A stretch of DNA of 64,000 nt from NCBI GenBank assembly GCA_018110905.1, contig JAGBAZ010000055.1, positions 1 to 64,000 of the forward strand, in the 5' to 3' direction. This DNA is from Oscillospiraceae bacterium. GTDB lineage: Bacteria; Bacillota; Clostridia; Oscillospirales; Ruminococcaceae. The position numbers and the translations under genes are program-made. The first letter of the stretch is position 1. Each line of letters opens with the position of its first letter. The notes under the pieces are model-generated. The model was not told the DNA's origin, did no database searches, and worked only from the letters and a program-made list of their open reading frames with translations. Of the stretch, positions 3,088 to 25,721 are shown piece after piece.

Positions 3088-3116
3088 TTGACATTATAAA
3101 TCATATTGTATATAAT
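3088..3116 (+). promoter_or_regulatory. Promoter of the rplJ-rplL operon
   Basis: Perfect TTGACA and TATAAT hexamers are separated by 17 nt, as expected for a strong ribosomal protein promoter. The transcript would begin just in front of the L10 leader. Confidence 0.92.
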
Positions 3117-3121
3117 ATTAA

Positions 3122-3245
3122 CGCTGTCCAAAGACAGCAGGTGCGTTTCTGCGCTTAAACGGTCAAAATGGCCGGCCTGCCGAGGATGAGTGTTTTAATG
3201 TGATTTATTACGCTCCTTCCACGGCTCGCGGAGGGAGCGTTTTTG
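3122..3245 (+). ncRNA. Ribosomal protein L10 leader
   Basis: The region between promoter and rplJ contains a TGTC..GACA stem, GCAGGTGCG, a GGCCGGCCTGCCGAGGATGA block and a final GC-rich hairpin. This matches the Firmicute L10 leader, to which L10 or the L10-L12 complex binds to reduce its own synthesis. The last hairpin (3210-3245, arms ACGCTCC and GGAGCGT, then T5) is an intrinsic terminator, so control is probably by attenuation. Confidence 0.87.
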
Positions 3246-3293
3246 TTTATACAAATTCAGCTCCCATCACAAAGCAGGAGGTGAATTTTTAAA

Positions 3294-24889: not shown

Positions 24890-25444
24890 TCATCTGTATT
24901 TGATAGTAAATTTGGGACCGGGAATAATCTTGGAATTTTCGACATCATATATTTCCGGACTAAAATGAATAAGAATCGGTTCATCCGAATCAATAACTTT
25001 TTGAGGAATTTCTACCGCCCAATAATGTGTTTCTTCTGCAAGCGGATCCATGTGATACATCCATACATCGGAACATAAAGAATGTACATCAAAGTCTATC
25101 TGATATTTATATCCGTCAGCATATTCAACGATTACATCGTCTGTATTAAGATACAGCGTATCTTTCGACATATTATCAATTTCTATTTCAATTGCCAAAA
25201 CTTTACCGATATCATATCTGCCTGCATAATGATTTTTAAAATCCAACAATTCGCCTTCCAATAAATTTTCGCCTTTTCCGAATTTAGCGGTTACTTTTAT
25301 TGAAATATCTTCAGATGTTAATGTTTCGTTAATTTTGCCTTCAACAACTGGATTAAGTTCTTCAACAACTGGATTGGCCACATCGCATCCGCACAGAGAA
25401 AGCAACATAACAAATACCAAAATAAGCGCCAATAATTTTTTCAT
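24890..25444 (-). CDS. Lipoprotein with a DUF4352-like beta domain
   Basis: The 184-residue protein has a lipoprotein signal (lipobox LCGC) and a beta-rich domain: VLAIEIEIDNMSKDTLYLNT followed by YKYQIDFDVHS resembles the Ig-like DUF4352/telomeric-repeat-type fold of small exported proteins. ATG at 25444 follows GGAGG; the longer frame to 25522 crosses a terminator hairpin and is rejected. The ribosome binding site begins only a few nt after that terminator, so expression is likely by read-through from the structured RNA promoter at 25633-25661. Confidence 0.75.
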   Translation of the reverse strand: MKKLLALILVFVMLLSLCGCDVANPVVEELNPVVEGKINETLTSEDISIKVTAKFGKGENLLEGELLDFKNHYAGRYDIGKVLAIEIEIDNMSKDTLYLNTDDVIVEYADGYKYQIDFDVHSLCSDVWMYHMDPLAEETHYWAVEIPQKVIDSDEPILIHFSPEIYDVENSKIIPGPKFTIKYR

Positions 25445-25461: not shown

Positions 25462-25628
25462 AATAAAAAAGTGCGCAGCCGAAGCTACGCACCAAAAACG
25501 CAAGCTCCGATTGCTGCGACACAAACTTTCACTTCCATCAGTAGGTATGCGAAAATAGAGCATGCATTTTTATCATGGGATAAAAATACACACCTTACTG
25601 ACGGAATCTTATTAAGTTTGCGTCGCAG
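25462..25628 (-). ncRNA. Candidate structured RNA (6S-like or leader RNA)
   Basis: From the promoter at 25633-25661 the transcript would start at an ACTGCGACGCAAACTT segment that pairs with AAGTTTGTGTCGCAG 100 nt further on (15 bp). Above this closing stem come an internal loop, a second long stem (CCGTCAGTAAGGTGTG with CATACCTACTGATGG), a 3' bulge of 16 nt and a terminal AT-rich stem-loop. A linker then leads to a UUCG-capped terminator. The total is about 167 nt. It could be a 6S-type RNA or an attenuating leader of the lipoprotein gene. No known Rfam class is recognised with confidence. Confidence 0.65.
25465..25492 (-). terminator. UUCG-capped terminator in front of the lipoprotein gene
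   Basis: On the minus strand GTGCGTAGC-TTCG-GCTGCGCAC is followed by T6ATTTT. The lipoprotein SD begins a few nt after the T run. Confidence 0.87.
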
Positions 25629-25632
25629 TTTT

Positions 25633-25661
25633 ATTTTATCACTTTGCGTTTGCAATATCAA
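25633..25661 (-). promoter_or_regulatory. Promoter of the structured RNA
   Basis: TTGATA and TAAAAT spaced by 17 nt on the minus strand; the start point falls exactly at the foot of the long hairpin. Confidence 0.78.
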
Positions 25662-25678: not shown

Positions 25679-25707
25679 AAAAAAACGGCGGGAGCATAGC
25701 CCCCGCC
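25679..25707 (-). terminator. Terminator of the mrp-HD-aminotransferase operon
   Basis: GGCGGGGGCTATGCTCCCGCC on the minus strand followed by GTTTTTTT. Confidence 0.87.
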
Positions 25708-25721
25708 CTACTTTTAAAAAT

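Follow-up and report, generated by a model that had tools for sequence, protein, structure and literature searches.

Structure of the element

The window, a stretch of 64,000 nucleotides from an Oscillospiraceae bacterium, carries on its minus strand an element (25465-25661) in which an extended -10 promoter is followed by a structured RNA of ~134 nt and a UUCG terminator, and then by the Shine-Dalgarno sequence (SD) and ATG of a lipoprotein gene (Table 1). The original prediction had described a promoter of the form TTGATA-17-TAAAAT, a transcription start at the foot of a 15-bp stem, a second, bulged stem, a 16-nt bulge and an AT-rich apical stem, and a UUCG terminator ahead of the lipoprotein SD. 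Sequence and scan agree on this promoter and add the extended -10 TG, P1 begins just past it, the upper parts are all present as P2, bulge and P3, and both terminator and SD were found in the sequence. The lipoprotein has no Pfam or NCBIfam family, and only a weak match to DUF4352 (E 0.011).

Table 1. Features of the leader and the gene behind it, in window coordinates
Feature	Position	Strand	Basis
Promoter: -35 TTGATA (25661-25656), 17-nt spacer, -10 TAAAAT (25638-25633), extended -10 TGaTAAAAT	25633..25661	-	sequence scan
P1 5' strand, 15 bp; RNA start at the foot of P1, 25628	25614..25628	-	fold and covariation
J1/2 5' side, unpaired conserved AAUA	25607..25613	-	A 79-94%, T 85-90%, A 83-85%
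P2 5' strand, including P2-top GGUGUGU	25588..25606	-	fold, swap test, covariation
Apical stem P3 (UUUUUAUC/GAUAAAAA), A/U; extendable downward to P3e	25566..25587	-	scan, swap test, covariation
Apical 3' strand AAAAAUGCAUGCUCU, A-rich; pseudoknot strand for the linker	25557..25571	-	covariation, swap tests
Remaining 3' bulge (UAUUUUC) and P2 3' strand	25533..25556	-	sequence, fold, covariation
P1 3' strand	25514..25528	-	fold and covariation
Linker UCGGAGCUUGCGUUUUU; predicted to form the pseudoknot with the apical strand or the antiterminator with the terminator 5' arm	25494..25510	-	covariation, swap tests, constrained fold
UUCG intrinsic terminator (hairpin 25493-25470), U-run to 25465	25465..25493	-	sequence; kept in family
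SD AGGAGG, after the terminator	about 25458-25453	-	sequence
Lipoprotein gene, 184 aa (MKKLLALILVFVMLLSLCGCD...), ATG at 25444	24890..25444	-	translation

The RNA of ~169 nt is predicted to fold at -71.2 kcal/mol, against -39.9 +/- 3.5 kcal/mol for shuffled sequences (z = -8.9, 0/200 shuffles). Over 182 aligned copies the TTG of the -35 element is conserved at 84-94%, and the extended -10, TGnTAtAAT, mostly at 71-97% per position. Compensatory base changes in relatives, whose absence the original prediction had named as evidence against it, were looked for, and strong ones were found. P1 has changed on both sides in 5 of 14 pairs and is paired in 95% of cells. P2 consists of 11 bp, a bulged A and 6-7 bp; its own strands against swapped ones give a z of -31, and all six pairs of P2-top have changed on both sides.

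A linker with two predicted partners

The original prediction did not describe the linker, which in the window is complementary to two other strands. The bulge/apical strand matches linker positions 25508-25494 at 14 of 15 positions, and a constrained fold gives 12 pairs between the linker and the 5' arm plus loop of the terminator. The first of these helices, a pseudoknot of ~15 bp (apical 25571-25557 : linker 25508-25494), is paired at 95% on 84 rows, with UA42/CG21/UG20 at one position and GC68/AU12 at the next; this alignment was built by a model lacking the pseudoknot pairing, from loci fetched with a pattern that spans the linker, not the apical strand. The second, the antiterminator, is 93% paired on a 36-row alignment, where double changes are modest (8 cells, 27/500 shuffles).

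Swap tests were run after removal of near-identical copies, with relatedness not fully corrected for. In 90 non-redundant copies, the apical strand pairs with its own linker at -16.0 kcal/mol vs -13.1 kcal/mol with swapped linkers (z -11). The antiterminator gives a z of -6.3 in all 90 copies and of -7.7 in the 57 with divergent terminators, for example CAAUUGGAGAUGCG/UGCGUCUCUGAUUGG, while nine control strand pairs all stay at |z| < 2. The apical strand has a second partner of its own, the 5' apical strand, with which it forms P3e (z -12; 8/14 pairs changed on both sides). This longer apical stem competes with P2-top and the pseudoknot. Covariation supports the linker in two mutually exclusive predicted helices, pseudoknot and antiterminator. 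The terminator and antiterminator folds lie near each other in energy, the median gap being 2.2 kcal/mol across 180 copies and the gap in the window 3.2 kcal/mol (-69.3 for the terminator fold vs -66.1 for the antiterminator fold).

Position before start codons and genes behind the leader

Among the 162 copies with enough flank for a position count, 117 show a start codon with an SD no more than 40 nt past the terminator (mode 20-22 nt), whereas in the divergent control direction, upstream of the promoter, a start codon lies this close in only 11. The remaining 45 copies have none within 40 nt, some of them having one slightly further away. It was reasonable to judge that the long open frame of the lipoprotein runs across the RNA by chance, as SD and ATG follow the terminator and this spacing is kept before unrelated genes.

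A Pfam tally of the genes behind the leader shows them to be mutually unrelated: BspA leucine-rich repeats (12/89), OB-fold (tRNA_anti-like) lipoproteins, AMP-ligases and Ltp lipoproteins, and further zinc ribbons, CHAP and M23 peptidases, collagen repeats, a PIN7 protein and an EcoRI-type methylase. By a crude heuristic, the adjacent products cluster as exported: 29% carry a lipobox, vs 6% of neighbouring genes, and 34% another N-terminal signal or TM segment, vs 18% of neighbours. Because a conserved leader precedes unrelated genes, a cis-acting role is suggested. Small cysteine/histidine-rich proteins (e.g. KYIYNPKTNCLHIEGCCCHAKP...CKIC) also recur behind the leader (L009, L040, L069, L140), and the one at L069 has no Pfam family.

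Distribution and novelty

Homologues were searched with BLAST and a covariance model, R1, of 134 positions. The genome itself holds five full copies (on C41, C63, C5, C22 and C44), and copies within one genome are only about 77-84% identical. Within the order, 125 of the 394 genomes and 68 of the 169 genera have the family; within the class, 74 of 291 genomes have it, and a single genome can hold at least 11 copies. In a phylum sample, roughly 240 genomes from other classes of the Bacillota gave no match at E<=1e-4, and R1 is thereby also shown to be specific. The named records belong to the Clostridia (Oscillospiraceae, Ruminococcaceae, Ruminiclostridium and others), and most are metagenome-assembled genomes from the gut or rumen of herbivores; one labelled R. 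flavefaciens (L242) fits the family pattern. A plasmid or phage element is disfavoured: plasmids gave no match, and viral contigs gave none to the exact pattern. Three 'phage' records that did match are unannotated human-faecal contigs; of two inspected, one has chromosomal-looking genes and the other an integrase.

No family of Rfam 15 matches at gathering score, nor is there a credible sub-threshold match, diverged copies and the longer subtype included. A literature search found no earlier description of the leader family, though one elsewhere stays possible. The family appears to be new, although a terminator-controlling leader is a known kind of element.

Tandem arrays and a longer subtype

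Several genomes carry tandem arrays of the leader, with four units at L108, three at L240 and two each at L051, L070, L152 and L173. The units inspected are each equipped with a promoter and a terminator, and their P1 stays paired in different sequences. Gene-less units with kept structure may have a trans-acting role. At L108 (565-1506) the spacers of the four units carry similar short frames, MNAFNLNLKxLNIRIH, possibly tiny genes or remnants.

A longer subtype of about 200 nt has an extra hairpin and the same 3' core, and comes from the same order of bacteria; at L240 long and short copies stand side by side in tandem. In the longer subtype (L256-L275, L019, L045, L046) behind the extra hairpin, GGGnAUA...UAUACCC, come a U-run and a pseudoknot complementarity of 15 bp that hardly varies. 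Around 500-690 of L043, a lipoprotein gene is preceded by a different and shorter leader set between the promoter and terminator of the family; the switch domain may have been lost here by a natural deletion.

A putative attenuation switch

Comparison of the copies shows the predicted pairings of P1, P2, P3e, pseudoknot and antiterminator, their mutual exclusion, and the conservation of the putative promoter and of the position before start codons. We consider it probable (roughly 75%) that the element attenuates transcription in cis, as a leader that belongs to an RNA family apparently not described before. It has the marks of a riboswitch, namely a covariation-supported structured domain in a 5' leader and a platform with mutually exclusive helices, and judged from its sequence it is most likely an orphan riboswitch candidate that chooses between stop and go of transcription. 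From the dedicated promoter, the transcript would form a long hairpin of P1, J1/2, P2, bulge and P3. In the OFF state, the linker would invade the A-rich apical strand as a pseudoknot of about 15 bp, leaving the terminator to fold and end transcription. In the ON state, the apical strand would be kept in P3/P3e and the linker would pair with the terminator 5' arm and loop, giving read-through into the surface-protein gene. The choice between terminator and antiterminator would be regulated and decided by a small molecule or a protein, and the sign of the switch is presumed to be negative, with the ligand turning the gene OFF by stabilising the pseudoknot. Through the leader, a signal probably switches surface-protein genes on and off.

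Copies that lack a close downstream gene, together with the tandem arrays, speak against a simple model of one leader for one gene. Geometrically, the pseudoknot would have to bridge P1 and P2 (about 14+19 bp) via a short linker, which would require a sharp bend at J1/2. A compensation of P1 and P2 lengths, as a sign of side-by-side packing, was not found, the two showing no compensating correlation across copies. A leader peptide read from AAAAAUG was likewise discarded, as it has no visible SD and its AUG varies, being AUA in L008 and L024.

Alternative explanations

The anatomy described above would be the same if an RNA-binding protein, acting at J1/2 or the bulge, picked between terminator and antiterminator. 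This sub-case of the attenuation leader is somewhat unlikely; the conserved unpaired AAUA and U-rich bulge, and a regulon of envelope proteins with no metabolic theme, are in its favour. We regard it as quite unlikely that the element is an autonomous multi-copy sRNA, in which a terminated transcript of 160-170 nt acts in trans and the downstream genes are incidental or reached by read-through. Such an RNA would explain the strong promoter and terminator of its own, the copies that lack a close gene and the gene-less tandem arrays whose P1 is nonetheless paired in different sequences (L108 565-1506, L240). However, in most copies the start codon is fixed 15-30 nt past the terminator, before unrelated genes, a plain sRNA would have no obvious use for a covarying antiterminator, and some arrays resemble relics of gene loss, as at L051, where the sequence behind copy 1 is a decayed duplicate of the gene start.

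The original prediction offered two readings, a 6S-like RNA and a riboswitch-like leader of the lipoprotein gene. Position, compensatory changes and exclusive pairings support the latter. 6S RNA or a 6S paralog is rejected as very improbable in spite of a length near 170 nt, the long hairpin with a central asymmetric bulge and a promoter of its own: a search of Rfam that included 6S gave no RF00013 match at gathering score, the 6S gene of this genome lies elsewhere (C11:42916-43108, 60 bits), and the element has many copies, mostly leading into a gene. We give equally little credence to a MITE-like mobile repeat or chance palindrome. Its dispersed copies, many per genome, are what a mobile repeat would produce, but compensatory changes occur in several helices and already go most of the way to refuting this reading, promoter and terminator are conserved outside the palindrome, same-genome copies share only about 77-84% identity, and neither a plasmid match nor, in viral contigs, an exact match to the pattern was found.

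Relation to known systems and implications

Like terminating riboswitches, the attenuation leader has a conserved structured domain in a 5' leader, an intrinsic terminator just before SD and ATG, and a switching strand common to two exclusive helices. It differs from them in matching no Rfam riboswitch, in a regulon of surface and accessory proteins, not one pathway, and in recurrent tandem copies, each with its own promoter where inspected. The c-di-GMP riboswitches (GEMM-I, c-di-GMP-II) occur in many copies per genome before surface-protein genes and are an analogue of the regulon of the leader. c-di-GMP is nevertheless unlikely as the ligand: a search of all Rfam families gave no match to the c-di-GMP riboswitch families, and this genome, 97% complete, yielded no GGDEF protein, whereas 8 of 14 control genomes did yield one. 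6S RNA (RF00013) shares with the leader the long hairpin with a central bulge, a similar length and its own promoter, but the leader has no match to its model, is multi-copy and is coupled to downstream genes.

ToxI leaders of type III toxin-antitoxin systems also run from a promoter through a structured RNA, sometimes tandem, to a terminator and then a gene, as the leader does. Unlike in these systems, the genes behind the leader are not of one toxin family, and its tandem units are spaced at about 200-270 nt and, where inspected, each have a promoter. By Pfam, the adjacent products include no type III toxin family, and a PIN7 gene lies behind one array only.

In its widest form the proposal is tentative and, to us, slightly short of an even chance: the leader would be a new riboswitch class in about one quarter to one third of sampled Clostridia genomes, in which three-strand exchange between apical strand, linker and terminator arm senses a cellular signal and sets the expression of envelope and surface proteins, and in which tandem self-promoted copies add control or a trans-acting RNA. 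Should it prove to be a riboswitch, Rfam 15 would be lacking a large orphan class, one that reaches at least 11 copies in a single genome among gut and rumen Clostridia. Such a class would imply that an unrecognised signal coordinates the surface lipoproteins and adhesin-like repeat proteins of these bacteria. Ordinary in vitro assays can address the question of the ligand directly, and the two exclusive helices offer clear mutants.

Other elements in the window

Behind the aminotransferase gene lies a terminator-like palindrome, GTAGGGCGGGGGCtatGCTCCCGCC (25687-25711, minus strand). This genome has seven copies of it, spread over both strands, and relatives have more, which makes it a small dispersed repeat. 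On the plus strand, 3110-3254 is an ordinary ribosomal protein L10 leader (RF00557, 71.4 bits).
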